From a virus: 22,351 nt of DNA. The stretch covers positions 1 through 22,351 of the IMG/VR virus record IMGVR_UViG_3300025125_000013. One strand, 5' to 3'. This document shows, in pieces, positions 3,799 to 15,634 of this stretch (positions within the stretch are counted from its first letter, which is position 1; the number at the start of each line of letters is the position of its first letter). The position numbers and the translations under genes were made by a program. The notes beneath the pieces are model-generated. The model did not search any database, was not told the DNA's origin, and worked only from the letters and a program-made list of their open reading frames with translations.

Positions 3799-3810
3799 GA
3801 TCCGGTCCCT

Positions 3811-3930
3811 CTAATCTAGCTTTAGACTAATATATTAGAAACCTATCTAAAAAAAATACACCTCTAGGATTAGACTCTAATCTAGCTATAGACTCTAAGC
3901 TATATATAGACTAAATGTAGACTAGTTCTA
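3811..3930. repeat. AT-rich iteron-like region (TAGACT repeats)
   Basis: TAGACT occurs at 3823, 3871, 3889, 3907 and 3918. Two consecutive 18-bp units begin TAGACTCTAA (3871 and 3889), with related CTAATCTAGCT segments at 3811 and 3877. The stretch is much more AT-rich than its surroundings and includes a run of A (3849-3856). It could be a replication origin, a repressor array, or the promoter zone for the RNA at 3936-4052 and the membrane-protein gene; I cannot choose between these from sequence. Confidence 0.6.
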
Positions 3931-4052: not shown

Positions 4053-4288
4053 GGAATTATAACTAATTCGTCTGGCACAAAGAGTGAACGAATGTAGAAC
4101 ATAGGGACGGCTGCGGGATTCTGGTAATCGTTTGAGTGGAACAGTGTTTACGCGCGGGGGGGTTCCGTCGCGCCTTAACGGGGGGTGGGGGGTCGGCGTC
4201 CGAGGCCGTGGGATAGTGTGGCTAGGTCGAAGGCCGTCCGTCGGGGTGGATCGGGGATCGGGCAGGGTCGGAGGCCGGGCGCGGCCAC
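4053..4288. other. Gene-free G-rich stretch between the small RNA and terS
   Basis: About 235 bases with no supported gene. It holds long G runs on the plus strand, including GGGGGG-T-GGGGGG at 4180-4193, which could in principle form a G-quadruplex, and many GGCC/GGTCGGAGGCC-type repeats. I see no promoter or terminator that I would defend. Confidence 0.5.
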
Positions 4289-4310
4289 AGGTGCATTTGC
4301 ACCTCTAGCC
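4289..4310 (-). repeat. GTGCAAATGCAC hairpin over the terS stop codon
   Basis: On the minus strand, the terS stop TAG lies inside GGCTAGAGGTGC-AAAT-GCACCTGTGGCC, a 12-bp stem with one mismatch. Twenty-one bases (rc of 4289-4309) are identical to stem III of the hammerhead candidate at 6547-6567, and GGCCGA upstream also matches. The CUGANGA half of a ribozyme is missing here, so this is the hairpin only. A third copy is at 9504-9521. Confidence 0.75.
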
Positions 4311-4823
4311 GTCGGCCAGCAGCGCGGTGAGTCGGGCTTCGAGCTGCTGCCGCACCTCGTCGGGTGAGGCATCGACCTCGACATGCTCTTGCACCTCGGT
4401 CCACATCTTGACGGCACTGTCCTTGCCCAGCAATTCGAGCGCGCGTACCCGGGCCGCGTCGGAGGTCGAGTTGGTCGCCTCGTGGGTCAGGCGCTCCACG
4501 ATCCACCGCCTCCGCGTGGCGGCATGGGATAGCTCAGACCGCTCCACGCTGGTCTGGTGAGCAAGTAGTCTCTGGGTCACCTCGGGGTGGCTGGCCAATA
4601 ACGACGCCTCGCAATGAATGGCGTGGGAACCCATCGCCTCGCACTGGTAAGCAGCGCGGTAGGCATCCGCTTGGCTCAGGCCCTTGATCAGCCCCCTGAC
4701 GAACGCCTCCTGCTTGGCCGTGAGAGGTCGCCGCTTTCGCCGCTTCCGCTTCTTGGGTGCGTCGCCGCCGCCTTCGATCACCGTCAGGACTGGTCGCTCG
4801 CCGTCGCCTGAATCATCTGCCAT
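4305..4823 (-). CDS. terS: Phage terminase small subunit
   Basis: The small terminase subunit recognises phage DNA and regulates the large subunit. After an acidic start and a basic KKRKRRKRR stretch, LTAKQEAFVRGLIKGLSQADAYRAAY is the N-terminal helix-turn-helix of the Terminase_2-type family, followed by the helical oligomerisation region and the conserved RVRALELLGK. About 172 residues is normal. I use ATG 4823 because GGCGAGG precedes it; ATG 4853 is in frame but lacks a ribosome site. The last bases form the shared hairpin at 4289-4310. Confidence 0.88.
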   Translation of the reverse strand: MADDSGDGERPVLTVIEGGGDAPKKRKRRKRRPLTAKQEAFVRGLIKGLSQADAYRAAYQCEAMGSHAIHCEASLLASHPEVTQRLLAHQTSVERSELSHAATRRRWIVERLTHEATNSTSDAARVRALELLGKDSAVKMWTEVQEHVEVDASPDEVRQQLEARLTALLADG

Positions 4824-5213: not shown

Positions 5214-5270
5214 TTGTGTCGAGCGCTGAAGCTGCGCTCCTGATGATGGCCTTGCAGGGCCGAAACACAA
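5214..5270 (+). ncRNA. Hammerhead ribozyme, type III
   Basis: All parts of the self-cleaving hammerhead are present in type III order. Stem III 5' strand TTGTG plus U16.1 (5214-5219), then C17 (5220) as part of a GUC triplet. Stem I is a closed hairpin GAGCGC/GCGCTC (5221-5226/5234-5239). The core CTGATGA is 5240-5246, stem II GGCC(T)/(G)GGCC is 5248-5261, then GAAA (5262-5265) and the stem III 3' strand CACAA (5266-5270). The predicted cut is between 5220 and 5221. One extra U (5247) sits between the core and stem II, a deviation from the usual motif. It lies 21 bases upstream of the next ATG, in the leader of the accessory operon. Confidence 0.78.
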
Positions 5271-5589: not shown

Positions 5590-6249
5590 ATGACGTCCTC
5601 CTACACCACCACCACCATCACCACCAACAATGAGGTAACCGACATGACTACCACCGACATCTCCATCGATCTCGCCGCTGCTGACGTTGCCACTCACGAG
5701 AGCCACGCGGTCAATCGCAAGGCGCTCATCACCGACGCGAAGGCGTCCTTCGACGCTGCCAAGATCGACGCATACGGCGTTGTCTGCGCTACCATCACCA
5801 AGCTCAAGCTGAAGAAGGGCACCAAGCGCGCTGGTGAATTCCGCGCTGCGATGGAGGCCAACGGCATCAGCACCGCATGTGCCAAACGCTACGCTGAGAT
5901 TGGTGCGGCGGCAGTCAGCGCCAAGATCTTCGACGTGACCGACAGATGCGGCGACACCGCGCTCGACTTCAACGACCTCGCGACCGAGATCAGCATCTCG
6001 CTCAGGAACAACGGCATCGAGACCGAGGCAGCACTGAAGGCGGCATGCTTCCCGAAAGTCGAGAAGGCGCTGGTCGAGAAGCTGGTCGACCTCGCGCTGG
6101 CTGGAAGCGACGACGAGGAAGCGGCGGTACAGGCGCTGCTCGACGCGGCTGCGGCCATCAACTCCGACGTCCGCGACGTGGCAGCGACCCTGCTCGCTGC
6201 GCTGAAAGAGAAAAACATTGCTCGCAGCTTTAAGTCCGCTGCGGCATAA
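5590..6249 (+). CDS. Alanine-rich helical protein, function unknown
   Basis: Up to 219 residues, almost all predicted helix, rich in A, D, E and K. There is no membrane segment and no enzymatic motif I recognise. It contains ITKLKLKKGTKRAGEFRAAME and a regular acidic/hydrophobic C-terminal half. Two starts are plausible: ATG 5590 with GAGGGGG upstream, and ATG 5644 with ATGAGGTAA upstream, the same ribosome-site word used before 7553 and 12855. The 18 extra residues of the long form are mostly T, S and N. It lies wholly inside the RNA segment bounded by the two ribozymes. Confidence 0.75.
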   Translation: MTSSYTTTTITTNNEVTDMTTTDISIDLAAADVATHESHAVNRKALITDAKASFDAAKIDAYGVVCATITKLKLKKGTKRAGEFRAAMEANGISTACAKRYAEIGAAAVSAKIFDVTDRCGDTALDFNDLATEISISLRNNGIETEAALKAACFPKVEKALVEKLVDLALAGSDDEEAAVQALLDAAAAINSDVRDVAATLLAALKEKNIARSFKSAAA

Positions 6250-6278: not shown

Positions 6279-6521
6279 ATGGTTGTTCAGAATGTAGTCC
6301 ACGTTGTTCGTAAGCGCCTCCGCGCTAGCGACGACGAGCAAATCGCCACGCTAGGCGAGACCCTGACCGACGAGCAAATCGCTCGTCTGACCGCGTGGAG
6401 TGCCGATGGCACCCTGCAAGATATCGGAAACACCGTCTGCCGTGCTCTCGCGGATGCGGGGGTTTCCCCCCGCTTGTTGGCCAATAGATGCTTTCGCATC
6501 CAAGTCTGCAAAGCCCACTGA
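6279..6521 (+). CDS. Small unknown protein with a C-terminus made from inserted repeat
   Basis: 80 residues, beginning MVVQNVVHVVRKRLRASDDEQ and containing LTDEQIARLTAWSADGTLQDI. I do not recognise it. TAGGAGG precedes ATG 6279. The last about 23 codons are encoded by the inverted repeat block at 6452-6504, so the natural end has probably been replaced by repeat sequence. The stop codon TGA (6519-6521) is part of the CTGACGA core of the ribozyme that follows. Confidence 0.7.
   Translation: MVVQNVVHVVRKRLRASDDEQIATLGETLTDEQIARLTAWSADGTLQDIGNTVCRALADAGVSPRLLANRCFRIQVCKAH
6452..6504 (-). repeat. Inverted, block-swapped copy of the intergenic element
   Basis: 6474-6504 is the exact reverse complement of 9470-9500 (31 bases) and 6452-6473 is the exact reverse complement of 9423-9444 (22 bases). 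At 9421 the 22-bp block comes first and the blocks are 25 bases apart; here, read on the minus strand, the 31-bp block comes first and joins the 22-bp block directly. The blocks form GCGGGGG/CCCCCGC and GATGC/GCATC hairpins on either strand. Confidence 0.85.
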
Positions 6522-6583
6522 CGAGGCCCTCTGGCAGGGGCCGAAAGCTAGAGGTGCAAATGCACCTCTGGCTCTGGGTAGCC
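6508..6583 (+). ncRNA. Hammerhead ribozyme, type I
   Basis: Stem I is GCCCA (6513-6517) with TGGGT (6575-6579), plus two further pairs after an internal loop. The core CTGACGA is 6518-6524. Stem II GGCCCT/GGGGCC (6525-6530/6537-6542) is 6 bp including a G-U. GAAA is 6543-6546. Stem III is an 11-bp hairpin GCTAGAGGTGC/GCACCTCTGGC (6547-6557/6562-6572) closed by A15.1-U16.1 (6546/6573), then C17 at 6574. The predicted cut is between 6574 and 6575. It fills the gap between the genes at 6279 and 6603. N7 is C rather than the common U, which is tolerated at that position. Confidence 0.85.
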
Positions 6584-6602: not shown

Positions 6603-6722
6603 ATGACCGACCAAGAGATCAAAGACCTATTCGACGAGAACCTCGACATGACGCTCGACGAGCTATCGAGGATCACTGGCAGAACCCGCAAGGAACTGAA
6701 AAACATTTTGATGGGAGGGTGA
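6603..6722 (+). CDS. 39-residue HTH-like protein
   Basis: A short gene encoding MTDQEIKDLFDENLDM, then TLDELSRITGRTRKELKNILMGG. The second half reads as a compact helix-turn-helix (LDELSRITGRTRKELKNIL); short proteins of this form occur in phages. AGGTGA precedes the ATG. It is the first gene after the type I ribozyme, about 28 bases after the predicted cut. A DNA-binding role is inferred from the motif only. Confidence 0.65.
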   Translation: MTDQEIKDLFDENLDMTLDELSRITGRTRKELKNILMGG

Positions 6723-7460: not shown

Positions 7461-7527
7461 GATGCGCTGGTCTAGCCAGCGTATCCATGAGCGCACCGGA
7501 AGGTGCTCTCTTGGATGCGAGAGCATC
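7461..7527 (+). repeat. Three-hairpin intergenic element, copy 1
   Basis: Hairpin 1: GATGCGCTGG/CCAGCGTATC (7461-7470/7476-7485). Hairpin 2: ATCCA/TGGAT, a T-T mismatch, then GAGCGCACC/GGTGCTCTC with a GGAA loop (7483-7516). Hairpin 3: GATGC-GAGA-GCATC (7514-7527). Hairpins 1 and 2, and 2 and 3, share bases and compete. The copy lies 13 bases before the GATGAGGTAA ribosome site of the gene at 7553. Confidence 0.8.
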
Positions 7528-7552
7528 ACCCCCCCCAACAGATGAGGTAAAG

Positions 7553-8149
7553 ATGGTTGATTTCTCACAAGCTACCCCTTTCATCGGCGTCGTGAACAGC
7601 GACCGACAAAGGTCCAAAGCACCTCGCGGCACCACTGTCGAATGCCGCATCATCAAGGAAGGCAAGTTCGGCATCTACGCGCTGTGCTTTATTGATGGCG
7701 ACGACAAGCCGGTATTCCTCAAGCCCGCGAATATCGATTATGTCGAGGACGTGAGCGCCGAGCAGCTTCAGGATATCGAGGACGAGAAGAAGGCTTGGTC
7801 GGACGCCAAAAACAAACCCGTTGCCGTCGGCAGCGGCGAGGTTCAGCCCAGCGGCAAGTCGGTTCTGGTCAACATCGACATCGCCATTGGCGCGCAGTCA
7901 ACGACAGGCCGTGCGTTCTTTCCGATCTCCACCGTGACCGAAACCGATGGCCAGTACAGTGCCCCGCCATGGCTGGCCAAGATCAAGGCCGCTGACGCCG
8001 CGCATTACTGGCTTTCCAATCGCGGCACCAAAGGCGTCGACCATCTGGGCGGCGACCGCGACGGTATCGAGTGCGTCTACGAGACCGGCCTCTCCTACGA
8101 GCTTGGATGGCACGACCTGCAAGAGGCGAAGGACCGCGCACGCAACTAA
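7553..8149 (+). CDS. Hypothetical phage protein, first of the ATPase/VWA cluster
   Basis: 198 residues from MVDFSQATPFIGVV. The N-terminal third is strand-rich (TTVECRIIKEGKFGIYALCFI), the middle charged and helical (AEQLQDIEDEKKAW), and the C-terminal third contains AHYWLSNRGTKGVDHLGGDRDGIECVYETGLSYELGW. I do not recognise a family. GATGAGG precedes ATG 7553. The gene lies between copies 1 and 2 of the three-hairpin element and directly upstream of the AAA+ ATPase, so a shared role is plausible but not shown. Confidence 0.75.
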   Translation: MVDFSQATPFIGVVNSDRQRSKAPRGTTVECRIIKEGKFGIYALCFIDGDDKPVFLKPANIDYVEDVSAEQLQDIEDEKKAWSDAKNKPVAVGSGEVQPSGKSVLVNIDIAIGAQSTTGRAFFPISTVTETDGQYSAPPWLAKIKAADAAHYWLSNRGTKGVDHLGGDRDGIECVYETGLSYELGWHDLQEAKDRARN

Positions 8150-8152
8150 AGA

Positions 8153-8220
8153 GATGCGCCGGGGAACCGGCGTATCCACCAGCGCACTCGACTAGGTGCG
8201 CTGATGGATGCGAATGCATC
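8153..8220 (+). repeat. Three-hairpin intergenic element, copy 2
   Basis: Hairpin 1: GATGCGCCGG-GGAA-CCGGCGTATC (8153-8176). Hairpin 2: ATCCA/TGGAT, a C-A mismatch, then CAGCGCAC/GTGCGCTG (8174-8209). Hairpin 3: GATGC-GAAT-GCATC (8207-8220). The copy begins 4 bases after the previous stop codon and ends 26 bases before the GGAGG of the ATPase gene. Confidence 0.85.
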
Positions 8221-8257
8221 ATCTCCCCTACGACAACAACAAACCGGAGGACTTCAT

Positions 8258-9415
8258 ATGACGACCTATGATCTCGCGCCCAACATGATGGGCGTGTTTC
8301 TCGTAACGAACCTGCCGTACCGTCCCGTGTTCTTCAACGGCCCCCCGGGGATCGGCAAGACGCAGGGCATCAAACAGTTCTGCACCGTCGAAACCTTCAA
8401 GGTCATCGCGGAAAAATATCTCCGCTGGCAAGGCAAGTGGGATCAACTCAAAGACGAGATCGCCTCCATTACCGAGGTTCGCGTTGACGATACGCTGCGC
8501 CTTGGCAACGTCGACTTGCTCGACCTTGGAGGCATCCCGTATGTCGAGGAAGGCGTGATGAAACGCGCCGTGCCCGAGTTCTGGATGGGCGTCAACGAGG
8601 AAGGCAAGGTGTTTGGCTTCCTTTATCTCGACGAGTACACGCATGCTGGTCGCGAGAAACAGACTGCCGCACAACAGTTGATGGACAACGGCACCTCCGG
8701 CAACTATCGCTTGCCGGGGCACCGCGTGGCCGACCCCGACTGCGAGCTTGGCCTCGTGTTCATTATCGCCAGCGGCAACCGCCAAAGCGACAAGGCCAAC
8801 TCCCACGGCATGGGCACCCAGACTGGCACTCGCTTCACGCATGCCACTGTCAGCCCAACGTCGGAGGGCTTTGTCGAGGGCTGGCTCGAATGGGCTGCCG
8901 CGAACGATGTCCACCCGTCGGTGCTGGCTTTCATCAAACAGTCTCCCGGCGACCTCTTCAATCTGGACCCCAACCAGAAGGAGGAACACCCGACGGCTGC
9001 AACGCCTCGCACTTGGGAGGCCGTCTCTCACATTGTGAAAGACAATCCGCCGATCTCGATTGAGTTCGCTTCGTATGCCGGGATCGTCGGTGAACAGGCC
9101 GCACGCTCGTTCGTAGCGATCCTGCACGCTGCGAGGTCGATCAACGTGGACGAGGCCTTGGTCGATCCGGCCAACGCCAGCATCCCTGCCGAGATCGGCC
9201 ATCAGTTTGCGGCAGCGAGCCTGTTAATCAGGCGAGCAACCATCGACAATTTCGACAACGTCATCGAATACGTCGAAAGGATCGGCGACGGCGAGTTCAG
9301 TTCACCGGAGATCGCCGTGTTCGTTGTCGACGCCATCGTGCGGAGGCAGCCGGTGCTGGCCGAGACCTCGTCGTATCGGGACTTCACGATACGCTGGTCG
9401 GAGATCAGTTCTTGA
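8258..9415 (+). CDS. MoxR/CobS-like AAA+ ATPase
   Basis: 385 residues. Walker A GPPGIGKT at residues 28-35 and Walker B FLYLDEYTHA at about 125-134, followed by QQLMDNGTSGNYRLPGHRV and the sensor-like LVFIIASGNR. This is the MoxR branch of AAA+ ATPases, which remodel partner proteins together with VWA/metal-binding subunits. The partner here is probably the VWA protein at 10470. GGAGG precedes ATG 8258. Cyanophage cobS-like genes are a known parallel, but nothing here points to cobalamin synthesis. Confidence 0.88.
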   Translation: MTTYDLAPNMMGVFLVTNLPYRPVFFNGPPGIGKTQGIKQFCTVETFKVIAEKYLRWQGKWDQLKDEIASITEVRVDDTLRLGNVDLLDLGGIPYVEEGVMKRAVPEFWMGVNEEGKVFGFLYLDEYTHAGREKQTAAQQLMDNGTSGNYRLPGHRVADPDCELGLVFIIASGNRQSDKANSHGMGTQTGTRFTHATVSPTSEGFVEGWLEWAAANDVHPSVLAFIKQSPGDLFNLDPNQKEEHPTAATPRTWEAVSHIVKDNPPISIEFASYAGIVGEQAARSFVAILHAARSINVDEALVDPANASIPAEIGHQFAAASLLIRRATIDNFDNVIEYVERIGDGEFSSPEIAVFVVDAIVRRQPVLAETSSYRDFTIRWSEISS

Positions 9416-9420
9416 AGACG

Positions 9421-9521
9421 GTGCGGGGGGAAACCCCCGCATCCATGAGGGCATCTAGTCGGATGCTCTCTTGGATGCGAAAGCATCTATTGGCCAACAA
9501 ATAGAAGTGCAAATGCACTTC
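9421..9521 (+). repeat. Three-hairpin intergenic element, copy 3, with two extra hairpins
   Basis: Hairpin 1: TGCGGGGG-GAAA-CCCCCGCA (9422-9441). Hairpin 2: GCATCCA/TGGATGC, a T-T mismatch, then GAGGGCATC/GATGCTCTC (9439-9478). Hairpin 3: GATGC-GAAA-GCATC (9474-9487). It continues into CTATT/AATAG (9487-9504) and GAAGTGC-AAAT-GCACTTC (9504-9521), the third GTGCAAATGCAC hairpin. It ends 5 bases before the GGAGG of the next gene. Two of its blocks recur inverted at 6452-6504. Confidence 0.85.
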
Positions 9522-9539
9522 AAACTGGAGGACTCAATC

Positions 9540-10460
9540 ATGTCTACGAAGCTCGATAATCATCTTAGCTCCAAGGCGACCCTGATCGCCGTCGAGGGCA
9601 GGGTCTGGAAGGAAACCGTCTACGACGGCGCAGCCACGGCATCCAGCACGGCAGCGCTTTCGACCACCAAGAACTGGGGCAGCTTCTACAAGCGCTTGAT
9701 CGACCCCGCCGTGTTCAAGCCGGTGGCAAAGGTTCTGGCTGCAAGTCGCCATTATGTAAATGGCAATTCGGCTGGCGTTTTCGACGGCAAGTTCATCCCC
9801 GGTGGGCTGCCTGAGTACGAGGGCAAACGGTTGCTGCCCAATCTCATCGCCAACCAAGTGAAGCGTAACCTCGACTCCGCCGTGGAGCTTTTCTATGAGG
9901 AGCTTGACAAGGCAGCGCTTCAACTGCCCGACGCTGTCGCCCGTGCCAAGCTCGAAAGCCCCGAGCTTTTGAAAGACTACGACTTCCCGTCGGTCGAAGA
10001 GATCTTGACCAAAAGATTCTCGATCAACATCTGGCAGGGTCGGATCTCGCCTGATGCCAACACGTTCATCGACGGCGTCTCGAAAGAGTTCGGCGAGGAA
10101 GTCCATCGCCAGCACAAGGAGCGTGAAAGCCAAGCGCTCCGCGATGTCACAACGGGCATTGCCAACACGATTGTCTCTGTCGCCGGTCACTTTTCGGATG
10201 TGCTTGGGAGCTACGACCCCGAGGCCAGAGGCGGTGCGCCGTTTCGCGAATCAACTGTGGAGAAGATCCGCGATCTCGTTCCCGTCATCCGCGCGATGAA
10301 CGTCGAAGGCGATGCGAGGCTCGACCAAGCTGCAACCGACCTAACCGCAGCGCTTGGCAACAAGAGCGGCGAGGAGCTTCGCCACGACGACGACGAGCGC
10401 AAGGCAACTGCCGACGCCGCGCGCAAGATCGCCAACAACATAGACTCATTCTTCAACTAG
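9540..10460 (+). CDS. Helical protein between ATPase and VWA genes, DUF3150-like candidate
   Basis: 306 residues, mostly helical and charged. N-terminal LDNHLSSKATLIAVEGRVWKE, central SAVELFYEELDKAALQLPDA and SVEEILTKRFSINIW, and a polar helical tail. There is no catalytic motif. Its place between a MoxR-like ATPase and a VWA protein, its size and its helical build resemble DUF3150 proteins that occupy the same slot in other clusters; this is a suggestion from context, not a confirmed match. GGAGG precedes ATG 9540. Confidence 0.7.
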   Translation: MSTKLDNHLSSKATLIAVEGRVWKETVYDGAATASSTAALSTTKNWGSFYKRLIDPAVFKPVAKVLAASRHYVNGNSAGVFDGKFIPGGLPEYEGKRLLPNLIANQVKRNLDSAVELFYEELDKAALQLPDAVARAKLESPELLKDYDFPSVEEILTKRFSINIWQGRISPDANTFIDGVSKEFGEEVHRQHKERESQALRDVTTGIANTIVSVAGHFSDVLGSYDPEARGGAPFRESTVEKIRDLVPVIRAMNVEGDARLDQAATDLTAALGNKSGEELRHDDDERKATADAARKIANNIDSFFN

Positions 10461-10469
10461 GAGGTTGCC

Positions 10470-11732
10470 ATGACTGTCCATCTTTTCGAGAAGGACGCCG
10501 AGAAGGCGCGCATCATGCGCGCCCGCTCCCGGCTCGCCGCCAAGGCGGCGGGCTATGCTTCAATCGTCTTCGGCCTCGAACTGGTCGAAACCGCTCGCAC
10601 CGAAACGATGGCGACCGACGGTCGCTACATCTATTGGAACCGCGAATTCGTCAGGTCGATATCCAACCGCGAGATCGTGGGCACGCTCTTCCACGAGGGG
10701 CTCCATGTCACGCTGTGCCATCACCTACGCAGAGCGGGGATCGACCCGGGCCTATGGAATATCGCGTGCGATTACGTGATCAACCTGATCGTTGTCGACG
10801 CTGGCGAGAAGCTGCCGGAGGGTGCCCTCTACGACCCCAAGTATCGCGGCATGACCGCCAACCAAGTCGCCAAGCTACTCCCTCCCCCGCCGACAGATGA
10901 TGGCGATGAGGGTGAAGGTGAAGGCGAAGGTGAAGGTGAAGGTGAAGGCGAAGGTGAAGAGGGTGAAGGCCCTGCTCCCGGTCAGCCCTCTGACTTCGGC
11001 AAAGCCGGGGAGATTTGGGACGCGACCAACGAAGAGGGTGAAGCCCTCAGCCCTGCCGAGCGCAACGTGCGCGAGGAGGAAACCCGCCGCGACGTGATCG
11101 TTGCTGGCACAATCGAGAGGGTCGCTGGCTCAGGCTCGATCACCATCGATAGCGGCGTCTTGGATGCGGCTAAAGCTGCCAACGTCGACTGGGTCGAAGC
11201 ACTCGCCGACTTCCTCGACAAGTCCTTCGGACAGGAAGAGACGATGGCCAAGCCCAACCGGCGCTTCATTGGCGGCGGTTCCTACTTCCCCTCGACAAAG
11301 GGAGTGGGCGGCGGCGATCTCGTGATCGCTATCGATACTTCGGGGAGCGTCAGCCAAGAAGAGGCGCAGCGCTTCGCGACCGAGATCGATGGCATCCGCC
11401 AGACGATCCAGCCCAACAGGACGTGTGTCATCTACTGCGATGACCATATCCAGAAAGGCAAGGACGGCCAGCCTTACGATGACTTCGATTCATTCGAGGA
11501 CATCGAGGTCAGGGCTATCGACGGCGGCGGAACGCGCTTTGATCCGCCGTTCCATTTGGTCGAGCAGGAGGGGTTGCAGCCCAACGCCTTCCTGTACTTC
11601 ACCGACGGCTACTGCCACGTCGAGGAGCGCACCGGCAGCTTGGTCGACTACCCCGTGCTGTGGGTGACGACCGGCGCGGAGCCATCGTTCCGAGGTGAGC
11701 CTTTCGGCGACGTGCTGGAGGTTGAGATTTAG
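10470..11732 (+). CDS. Metallopeptidase-like / VWA-like protein (DUF2201 type)
   Basis: 420 residues. The N-terminal half carries HEGLH at residues 75-79, a HExxH-type zinc site in LFHEGLHVTLCHH, followed by WNIACDYVIN, as in the putative metallopeptidase domain of DUF2201. A low-complexity GEGEGE linker (about residues 147-170) is encoded by a GGTGAAGGCGAA-type hexanucleotide repeat. The C-terminal VWA-like domain holds the MIDAS motif DTSGS at about residue 289 and a later FTDGYC. Such proteins pair with MoxR ATPases; the 9-base gap from the previous gene and strong GGAGG support one operon. The substrate in a phage is unknown. Confidence 0.85.
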   Translation: MTVHLFEKDAEKARIMRARSRLAAKAAGYASIVFGLELVETARTETMATDGRYIYWNREFVRSISNREIVGTLFHEGLHVTLCHHLRRAGIDPGLWNIACDYVINLIVVDAGEKLPEGALYDPKYRGMTANQVAKLLPPPPTDDGDEGEGEGEGEGEGEGEGEEGEGPAPGQPSDFGKAGEIWDATNEEGEALSPAERNVREEETRRDVIVAGTIERVAGSGSITIDSGVLDAAKAANVDWVEALADFLDKSFGQEETMAKPNRRFIGGGSYFPSTKGVGGGDLVIAIDTSGSVSQEEAQRFATEIDGIRQTIQPNRTCVIYCDDHIQKGKDGQPYDDFDSFEDIEVRAIDGGGTRFDPPFHLVEQEGLQPNAFLYFTDGYCHVEERTGSLVDYPVLWVTTGAEPSFRGEPFGDVLEVEI

Positions 11733-11895
11733 TTTAGGGGGGAGGTTCTTCGGGCTGAAGCGGCAGCCTCAAGCTGCGCGTCCTCTCCCCCCGCTGCCGA
11801 GAGGCAGTTGTTGTAGGGACGTGCAGCACCGCACCAAACTGGGGGGGCAGATGCCCCCCCATCTTTCACTCAAATCCAGATGAGGAAGACGACTG
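11733..11895 (+). other. Highly structured leader RNA with a three-way junction
   Basis: GGGGGGAGG (about 11738) can pair with CCTCTCCCCCC (about 11789) around two hairpins, CTTC/GAAG and GCAGC-CTCAA-GCTGC, making a three-way junction. CTGCC-GAGA-GGCAG follows, then a stem of G/C runs (GGGGGGC-AGAT-GCCCCCC). It is not a hammerhead: the core words are absent. The ribosome site GATGAGGAAG for the next gene comes after it. Confidence 0.55.
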
Positions 11896-12120
11896 ATGAC
11901 CCATGAAAAGAACGAAAAGATTTATAACGCGCTGTTAAACGAAACCGAATTGCTTTCAAAAGAAGGCGTTTCAACGGTGGAAATGGCGCGAGTGATGGCA
12001 AAGTTTCTTGTCACTTTAACCTATGATTGCGCTCCGTCATCCGACCATGCGACCCATTTAATTATGTCGGCAATGATGCAGCGGATGGAGGAAAACATAG
12101 GGCCACTGGAGGACGACTGA
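11896..12120 (+). CDS. Small acidic helical protein, unknown
   Basis: 74 residues, MTHEKNEKIYNALLNETELL... ending MQRMEENIGPLEDD. It reads as helical throughout and uses more AT-rich codons than its neighbours, which may indicate separate acquisition. No family recognised. Its TGA overlaps the ATG of the next gene by one base (TGATG), so the two are likely coupled. Confidence 0.65.
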   Translation: MTHEKNEKIYNALLNETELLSKEGVSTVEMARVMAKFLVTLTYDCAPSSDHATHLIMSAMMQRMEENIGPLEDD

Positions 12121-12443
12121 TGACTCAGCTTTTGCTAACTGACTGCTTCTACATCCCGCCACGGCTCCGCCGCACCGCAACCAAGACGGTGACGCGGAAG
12201 CGGAGGGCCAAGCGCAGCCCCAGCGTGGCGGCGTTGCCGCACGAGAAGCGTCCGCCCAAGGCGAGGCGTTTCAAGGGTGCGACCAAGGTTGTCGTTCGCT
12301 TGGAGGACCAAGCCCCAAGCATTGGGTCAGGCATCCGACATGTCTGGGCCAAGCGCGGTCGGGTCTGGGTTCACGTCGCCGACTTCGCTGGCAACACTGG
12401 CAAGCTCCGCATCGCTGAGTTCGACATGGCAGTGCGGGATTAG
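12120..12443 (+). CDS. Basic hypothetical protein, 107 residues
   Basis: MTQLLLTDCFYIPPRLRRTATKTVTRKRRAKRS..., a strongly basic N-terminal half, then strand-rich ATKVVVRLEDQAPS and HVWAKRGRVWVHVADFAGN. It may bind nucleic acid, judging by charge only. ATG 12120 was chosen because GAGGACGACTG precedes it and it overlaps the previous stop; the upstream frame is shadow of the previous gene. Confidence 0.65.
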   Translation: MTQLLLTDCFYIPPRLRRTATKTVTRKRRAKRSPSVAALPHEKRPPKARRFKGATKVVVRLEDQAPSIGSGIRHVWAKRGRVWVHVADFAGNTGKLRIAEFDMAVRD

Positions 12444-12521
12444 TTCACCGGGGAACACGGGAGACTTCCCCTAACATCAACTCTCGCTGAACCGTGTCGG
12501 CGAGAAAGAGGAGAAACTAGA

Positions 12522-12749
12522 ATGCCATCTGGCGTTTACGAAAGAACCCCCGCGCATCGTGCGTCAATGCGACGTGCCCAAGCGGAAGCCAAAGCCAACG
12601 GTTCGGAGGCGTCAACTTCACGCCGCCGTGCAGCCGCTGATCTCGCTGACTACACTTCAGCGCGGATAGCAGAGGCGGTCAAGCGCAACGACTTTTCGTT
12701 GGCTCGCGCGTGGATTGATTTGAACGAGTTGATTAGCAAGTCAGAGTAG
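12522..12749 (+). CDS. NUMOD3-like motif protein, 75 residues
   Basis: It begins MPSGVYERTPAHRASMRRAQAEA, close to the short DNA-binding motif (GVY-RT-EHR) common in homing endonucleases, but no HNH or GIY-YIG nuclease domain follows; the rest is helical (ADYTSARIAEAVKRNDFSLARAW). It may be a stand-alone DNA-binding module or a remnant. GAGGAG is 8 bases before the ATG. The 78-base gap upstream holds two hairpins (GGGGAA/TTCCCC and CTCGC/GCGAG). Confidence 0.65.
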   Translation: MPSGVYERTPAHRASMRRAQAEAKANGSEASTSRRRAAADLADYTSARIAEAVKRNDFSLARAWIDLNELISKSE

Positions 12750-12755
12750 TGAGGC

Positions 12756-12823
12756 GATGCGGGGAGTGATCCCCGCATCCATCAGCGCATTCAATCGGGT
12801 GCGTTGTTGGATGCGAAGGCATC
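12756..12823 (+). repeat. Three-hairpin intergenic element, copy 4
   Basis: Hairpin 1: GATGCGGGGA-GTGA-TCCCCGCATC (12756-12779). Hairpin 2: GCATCCA/TGGATGC, a T-T mismatch, then CAGCGCATTC/GGGTGCGTTG (12775-12814). Hairpin 3: GATGC-GAAG-GCATC (12810-12823). It starts 7 bases after the previous stop. A tail GACCAACAAATAG matches the tail of copy 3 but lacks the GTGCAAATGCAC hairpin. Confidence 0.85.
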
Positions 12824-12854
12824 AATTGACCAACAAATAGATGAGGTAAGAAAC

Positions 12855-15187: not shown

Positions 15188-15634
15188 ACGTAGGGCTGCT
15201 AGCTGGCGAGGTGTTTTGATTCGGCTGGTATCTGTTACCACCGATACCAAAAGCCTCGTCGGCTCGCGGCCCGTTTCATACATTACATGGGCTGTTGCCT
15301 CAGAAATTTTTCTCACTGCAAATAAAAACCGCGCTCCCGGCATTCCTTTTTGAGTTGGTCCTCCCCCGACCAACGCCGCCAGCGCATTACTCCCCCCTCC
15401 CGCTCGGCTGAAATCCCTTTCAGCCCTTATCCCCGCCTCGTGTTGCTCAATCGATATCGAACTTGCACCCAGCAATCTGTCGAGTTCGCACCCATCGACA
15501 ACCCTCCCCCTCACGCTCCCTCCCAGTTGCGGACCCAATGGCTCGACCCTGATCTCACGTCGCCGCCATAATTCCGGCGTTCCGAGATCAGAAGGGGACG
15601 GATTCTTCTTCCCAATCTTCCTTTGCTTCTGCAT
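15116..15634 (-). CDS. Phage hypothetical protein, 172 residues
   Basis: After a basic start it reads GTPELWRRREIRVEP, GRVVDGCELDRLLGA, SISIEQHEAGIRAERDF and ends LAALRLALDALCDFY. This order (GTPE..RR, a short linker with Q-x2-AG, a late LxxALDxL helix pair) is familiar from alphaproteobacterial phage proteins of unknown function. It overlaps the end of the primase-helicase gene by 47 bases and has only a weak GGGAA site, suggesting coupling. It also overlaps the plus-strand gene at 14990 tail to tail. Confidence 0.65.
   Translation of the reverse strand: MQKQRKIGKKNPSPSDLGTPELWRRREIRVEPLGPQLGGSVRGRVVDGCELDRLLGASSISIEQHEAGIRAERDFSRAGGGSNALAALVGGGPTQKGMPGARFLFAVRKISEATAHVMYETGREPTRLLVSVVTDTSRIKTPRQLAALRLALDALCDFYRGRVRPPPISLRL

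Follow-up and report, generated by a model that had tools for sequence, protein, structure and literature searches.

A structured RNA element between phage genes that shares its slots with predicted hammerhead motifs

The window, i.e., the whole stretch of DNA that was analysed, is an entire IMG/VR virus record of 22,351 bases (IMGVR_UViG_3300025125_000013). Its plus strand has four copies of an intergenic element that is a folded RNA not catalogued previously. At least 31 versions of the element are found, and its shape is kept while the sequence varies. At orthologous gene boundaries of related phages the slot holds either the element or a predicted hammerhead motif. We put at about one in two the probability that the element is a gene-boundary RNA acting in cis that does the job of a hammerhead, i.e., mRNA processing or definition of the 5' end, probably by way of a trans-acting factor. 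The sequences compared are metagenomic fragments throughout, and copies from one phage group are not independent.

The element family and its covariation

Copy 1 (positions 7461–7527) is in the leader of the F10 gene (198 aa), copy 2 (8153–8220) is between F10 and F02 and 3 nt past a stop codon, copy 3 (9420–9487) is between F02 and F03, and copy 4 (12756–12823) is upstream of F34 (415 aa) and 6 nt past a stop codon. Scores with the covariance model (CM) are 76.6 bits (CM R1, with copy 1 in the training set), 80.8, 78.2 and 76.8 bits, respectively. An earlier note, made from the letters of the window, had described the four copies and the order of their parts correctly, apart from copy 3, which begins one base earlier than was given there. 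It had also placed three copies just past a stop codon and all four ahead of a ribosome site, and this is the case, with distances of 3, 4 and 6 nt from the stop codon. The sequence of the third hairpin (H3), GGATGCGANNGCATC, has five exact matches in the window, the four copies and a minus-strand fragment at 6487–6501. Where 1.1 matches are expected with two mismatches allowed, there are 8, a count not attained in any of 100 shuffles. The minus-strand match belongs to an inverted and rearranged fragment of copy 3 (6443–6504, minus strand; inverted repeats I4 and I5), which consists of H3 and tail (31 nt, identical) followed by the first hairpin, H1 (31 nt, 90%), an order swapped with respect to copy 3. 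The full model gives this fragment only 15.9 bits. It sits within the end of an open reading frame (ORF; 6279–6521), immediately upstream of the type I hammerhead motif described below.

Relatives were recovered by degenerate-pattern scans of viral contigs, and a CM was trained on 12 copies. The CM recovers 32 copies, 31 of them distinct, in 14 IMG/VR phage contigs. Copies outside the training set are recovered with E-values of 2.2e-14 (L007 1417–1486, in a mixed search), 1e-13 (L154) and 6e-13 (L151); a divergent copy at G003 15367–15438 has 33.7 bits. Non-training copies with E-values down to 1e-14 rule out a chance or artefactual origin. At the gathering score, Rfam 15 shows no match to the element in the window and 11 relative loci, in line with the initial impression that no named family fits. 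Among sub-threshold Rfam overlaps the best is with chrB-b, at the inverted fragment (31.5, with a cut-off of 36.5); suhB is likewise sub-threshold, and there is no resemblance to the Rfam ribozyme families. A blastn search of named phages and plasmids gave no convincing element.

Three sets of candidates were rejected. A pattern scan of bacterial genomes gave 98 stretches, the best of which reaches only 26.8 bits with the CM over 719 kb, and these are considered chance matches. Antisense CM matches of 20–36 bits are echoes of the near-palindromic stems and not extra copies. A pattern that included the AATT tail gave many chance matches in coding sequence. A truncated element of H3 and tail only is seen upstream of the ATPase gene (F02 in G002; L007 2668–2681, minus strand); it may be a remnant or a minimal form.

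Among 30 distinct aligned copies, standard pairs make up 98.7% of the paired cells, and both sides of the pair have changed in 128 cells. Sliding the partner strand abolishes the signal, with a covariation of 0.541 in register compared with 0.078–0.161. As the alignment was fitted to the model, an independent covariation test was added, a G-test with average product correction, for which the null alignments had their substitutions redistributed along a tree. The best 12 of 2,346 column pairs are helix pairs throughout, including pairs of the H1 extension, and five have E<0.05 under this tree-based null. The element is a structured RNA family with covariation beyond phylogeny. The concerted change of the inner stems that was first seen in the four window copies is thus borne out, both there and in the 30 distinct copies. 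G-U pairs number 91 among the paired cells and A-C pairs 6; the large excess of G-U shows selection on sense-strand RNA, and not on DNA or antisense RNA. There is no extra covarying pair that suggests a pseudoknot.

Two mutually exclusive folds

Four arms recur in the element, a (GRUGCG), b (CGYAUCCA), c (UGGAUGCG) and d (GCAUC). In fold I, a pairs with b and c with d, which gives three abutting hairpins with no linker. In fold II, a pairs with d and b with c, and the result is a three-way junction that is closed and has as its long arm the second hairpin (H2) extended by b:c. This extended hairpin of about 17 bp has 8 and 9 bp flanking one mismatch. The two folds exclude one another, and the arms are paired in 98.7% (fold I) and 98.6% (fold II) of cells in the 30 aligned copies. 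Predicted fold stabilities are about -34 to -50 kcal/mol. The difference between the folds is -2.5 to +0.4 kcal/mol, with a mean of -1.6 in favor of fold I, and energies near multiloops are uncertain by roughly this difference itself. The near-equality of the folds is due to the resemblance of a to c and of b to d. Exclusive hairpins had been proposed from the start, and the exclusivity holds; the sharing of ATCC or GGAT by adjacent hairpins does not by itself account for it, and a four-arm exchange (a:b + c:d against a:d + b:c) describes it better. A mismatch at a fixed place in H2 had been described as well, but it is not a feature of the whole family, as several relatives have a U-A pair there (e.g., L006 1592–1661 and L009 2072–2141).

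Almost every change seen in the arms is a transition that wobble pairing tolerates. In the G005/G008/G009 lineage, three columns, 36 (U to C), 70 (A to G) and 82 (U to C), change together such that the pairings of both folds are preserved. Column 3 is the exception; in the copies of this lineage it is paired in neither fold. The pairs A39-U67 and A42-U64 and the base G43 are invariant beyond what pairing requires, which hints at sequence-specific recognition. Every strongly conserved column is paired in fold I as well as in fold II, and a conserved unpaired core was not found among the aligned copies.

The genomic slot and its use by hammerhead motifs

All 32 copies confirmed by the CM are on the sense strand, in an intergenic leader upstream of a start codon; the possibility, raised with the original proposal, that the element might occur equally inside genes and in both orientations does not apply. 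The distance from the end of the element to the start codon is 23–52 nt, and the previous stop codon is commonly 3–24 nt before the element. An A/C-rich leader follows the element and ends in (T)GAGGTGAC, with the Shine-Dalgarno sequence about 20 nt past the element. In copy 4 this tail and its Shine-Dalgarno sequence, AATTGACCAACAAATAGATGAGGTA, are at 12824–12848 (plus strand); the alignment and the listing of leaders show that the same leader recurs after elements and hammerheads in the phage group. The Shine-Dalgarno sequence is not overlapped by the element and is paired with it only about 11% on average, which rules out sequestration of the ribosome site. A coding role was considered. The four window copies are open in frame with the downstream gene, but the spacing to the start codon in other phages is 23, 29, 30, 32 or 38 nt, so that the frame is not kept, and this role was rejected. 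Between phages, copies that occupy one site have an identity of 0.709, compared with 0.678 for copies within one phage (permutation p 0.0005). The greater likeness of same-site copies indicates that they were mostly inherited in place.

Two hammerhead motifs are predicted in the window, both on the plus strand. A type III motif (5214–5270) is in the leader of the F18 gene (95 aa) and has a full core with stems of 6, 4.5 and 6. A type I motif (6513–6579) is upstream of a small ORF that starts at 6603 and has a perfect core with stems of 5, 6 and 12 bp. Rfam reports neither of them; there is a sub-threshold Hammerhead_3 match of 20.1 bits near 6513–6579 only. Stem III of the predicted type I motif is a long hairpin, GAGGTGCAAATGCACCTC (6551–6568). 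A recurring hairpin, GAAGTGCAAATGCACTTC / GAGGTGCAAATGCACCTC, is also seen in leaders and at gene ends (window 4284–4317 and 9505–9521; L154 at about 10830–10850); in one case it is a hammerhead stem III and elsewhere it stands alone.

Rfam Hammerhead_II is above the cut-off in five contigs (G005, G007, G008, G011 and G012), on the strand of the element and with the same tail. A custom descriptor covering all three hammerhead types gave 13 candidates in the 14 contigs at the working threshold; reversed sequence gave 0 and shuffled sequence 0.8 on average. Of the 13, one in G008 and one in G016 appear to be chance matches within genes. An extra type I motif with a bulged stem II was spotted by eye in G004, and it folds as expected. 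The accepted motifs number 12, in 9 of the 14 contigs. Neither the descriptor nor the Hammerhead_II search returned any copy of the element, and the core that defines hammerheads, CUGANGA and GAAA with a UH cleavage site at a junction of three helices, is not conserved across the copies.

The presence of the two RNAs at orthologous sites is the main result. Before F10 there is an element in the window, G004, G006 and G012, a type I motif in G001 and a type II motif in G005. Before F02 there is an element in the window, G001, G005, G008 and G009, a type II motif in G007 and G011 and a type I motif in G004. Before F18 the window has its type III motif, and G003, G008 and G009 have an element. 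Element and hammerhead are never together in one leader. The F02–F03 junction has an element in 10 of 10 clade phages where it is covered, and distant phages have hammerheads after the ATPase gene, e.g., type II in L223 and L224 and type III in L207 and L210.

As an unbiased check, contigs were collected by similarity of the ATPase protein alone, which gave 28 loci new to the analysis. In their 223 kb these loci have 42 matches to the hammerhead descriptor, and every match is on the strand of the ATPase gene; the loci partly overlap in content, and 42 is therefore not a count of independent motifs. A few of the 42 look weak or coding. Among the controls, unrelated viral loci (249 kb) gave 1 match and bacterial loci (719 kb) gave none. 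At the gathering score Rfam reports none of the 42 (14 loci checked), and the prediction of hammerheads at ATPase loci therefore draws on the intact core, the three stems and the controls. None of the 28 loci has an element, which indicates that the element is restricted to one subclade within a broader group that is rich in hammerhead motifs. In L198–L226, viral loci that surround gp24-like ATPase genes, the ATPase/DUF3150/VWA module is a hot-spot for predicted hammerhead motifs of all three types, often with several per operon. L198 and L199 have, after the ATPase gene (about 6095–6200), a GC-rich hairpin and then CAGGTTAAAATTAACCTG at the junction that the element holds in its own clade; this two-hairpin arrangement is possibly another leader RNA. 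A partial survey of the literature found no paper on the link between the ATPase and hammerheads, and an earlier account of this link or of the element in a subscription journal is possible.

Genes for a terminase large subunit and a primase/helicase are present in the window, as is a series of plus-strand genes to which F02, F03 and F05 belong. F02 (8258–9415, plus strand) encodes a MoxR-type, N4 gp24-like ATPase (PHROG 1297 ATPase, E 2.3e-53) with about 25% identity to N4 gp24-like proteins of named phages, and it is the anchor gene of the hammerhead-rich module. A single-protein search with this ATPase found no viral relatives, but an alignment search did recover them. F03 (9540–10460, plus strand) is DUF3150-like, with a DUF3150 match in 3 of 7 members (best E 0.00019), and the element is always upstream of it within the clade. 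F03 was considered as a dedicated RNA-binding partner and set aside, the evidence being only a weak similarity to DUF3150 and a model with a pLDDT of 77, with which no fold search was made. F05 (10470–11732, plus strand) is DUF2201 metallopeptidase-like / VWA (Pfam PF13203, PF09967); its leader has an element in G005, G007 and G008 but not in the window. The region has no match at the DNA level to named phages. Short repeats, CTCTAATCTAGCTTTAGACT, are clustered in an AT-rich non-coding stretch at 3800–3920 (family D10) and are possibly related to an origin or a repressor.

Possible roles and comparison with known systems

As a gene-boundary RNA equivalent to a hammerhead, the element would punctuate the polycistronic phage mRNA, and it would create or protect a defined mRNA end beside the ribosome site of the downstream gene. 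Cutting or capping in trans might be by host RNase III acting on the extended hairpin of the junction fold, or by a phage or host protein that reads the invariant paired bases. The exchange of folds could serve as a switch, e.g., if a terminating ribosome masks the first arm. A trans-acting factor is favored because there is no conserved unpaired core. Several points weigh against this interpretation. Its support consists of sequence comparison and predicted folds, and replacement in the same slot demonstrates a common position, not a common function. Since all ten clade members keep the element at the F02–F03 junction, replacement there is seen only in distant phages. Hammerhead activity is itself predicted, and the type I and type III assignments come from the custom descriptor and are unrecognised by Rfam. 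The linked changes that speak for the junction fold represent one or two lineages or events, and column pairs 70–82 and 36–70 score equally and are statistically inseparable. Protein binding alone could also fix the conserved arms.

That the element cuts itself, as a new class of self-cleaving ribozyme, is unlikely, although its slots are common to several hammerhead types and its arms are conserved beyond the needs of pairing. Known classes of self-cleaving ribozyme have a conserved unpaired catalytic core. The strongly conserved bases of the element are instead all paired in both folds, and neither pseudoknot-like covariation nor a likeness to Rfam ribozyme families is seen. Published work advises looking for new ribozymes where several ribozyme classes share a location, a logic that gave pistol, hatchet and twister-sister (PMC10085705) and that makes the element a candidate ribozyme. 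Among the non-hammerhead candidates of the hairpin-ribozyme study that was consulted, none cleaved. Rather improbable is a particular form of this proposal, in which a new class would be built on an RNA four-way arm exchange (a sliding GAUGC/GCAUC junction), be interchangeable with hammerheads and cut operon transcripts at gene boundaries. The invariant A-U pairs and G43, the identical arm sequences in two hairpins and a position about 20 nt from the Shine-Dalgarno sequence would also fit a translational operator, i.e., a phage or host protein that binds the repeated GAUGC/GCAUC stems and the conserved H2 base and controls the downstream gene with no cutting. The little-paired, non-overlapped ribosome site, the functional diversity of the genes that follow the copies and the hammerheads in the same slots do not suit a pure operator, and this role too is unlikely.

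Very stable folds right past stop codons would be expected of a passive, REP-like end-protector or insulator, whose hairpins stop exonucleases and protect the upstream or downstream mRNA. Stability alone needs neither strict conservation of four arms nor a precise architecture, and G010 has a plain hairpin without these features at another junction, so that such a role is rather doubtful. The earlier note had likened the competing hairpins to attenuators, and mutually exclusive folds are indeed present in every aligned copy. The likeness does not extend further. On the strand of the element there is no terminator U-run after the last hairpin, terminators are not in excess in the region and are absent from the plus strand at the elements, and the element recurs at many successive gene boundaries of one phage. 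The missing U-run and the rarely paired ribosome site make classical attenuation, or antitermination, very unlikely. The lowest probability is given to a mobile, MITE-like repeat cassette with no role of its own. Several copies per genome, the truncated copy in G002 and the inverted, rearranged window fragment are what such a cassette would leave, but copies at the same site are the more alike, the orientation is single, and the compensatory changes show selection on the RNA.

That the same genes are preceded, in the same slots, by two RNA structures unrelated to each other amounts to a natural swap experiment on why phages carry intergenic hammerheads. Whatever the two have in common (end formation, stability or translation) is likely to be the function. 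The element is also a covariation-supported RNA family new to Rfam and a candidate for a new ribozyme or nuclease target, and the module of MoxR-type ATPase, DUF3150 and DUF2201/VWA genes is a hammerhead hot-spot that may be useful for finding more.

Known systems resemble the element to different degrees. The promoter/stem-loop cassettes of T4, to which it had first been compared, are likewise repeated stem-loop units between phage genes. The element is much larger, no promoter part was found in it, it is conserved in position and its phages are not those of T4 type; its copies follow gene position and do not look freshly mobile, and the parallel is weaker than that with the hammerheads in the same slots. 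In T7-type phages, RNase III sites between genes cut the polycistronic transcript. These sites are structured and intergenic, as is the element, which differs in that it keeps specific stem sequences and can refold into three short hairpins; its cutting is putative. RAGATH-type motifs, as well as pistol, hatchet and twister-sister, are similarly structured RNAs beside hammerhead-associated genes, but the element matches no Rfam family in sequence or structure, and its cleavage is putative. The closest parallel is with hammerheads, which are found in phage intergenic regions, close to start codons and upstream of phage and virus genes (Perreault 2011, PMC3088659). In phage leaders they have in common with the element the slot from stop codon to Shine-Dalgarno sequence, the strand, the A/C-rich tail and replacement at orthologous sites. 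They differ in having a CUGANGA/GAAA core; the element lacks such a core, has no unpaired bases that are conserved, and consists of three hairpins that abut and can exchange arms. The shared slots suggest that both RNAs may mark and process gene boundaries in phage mRNA.

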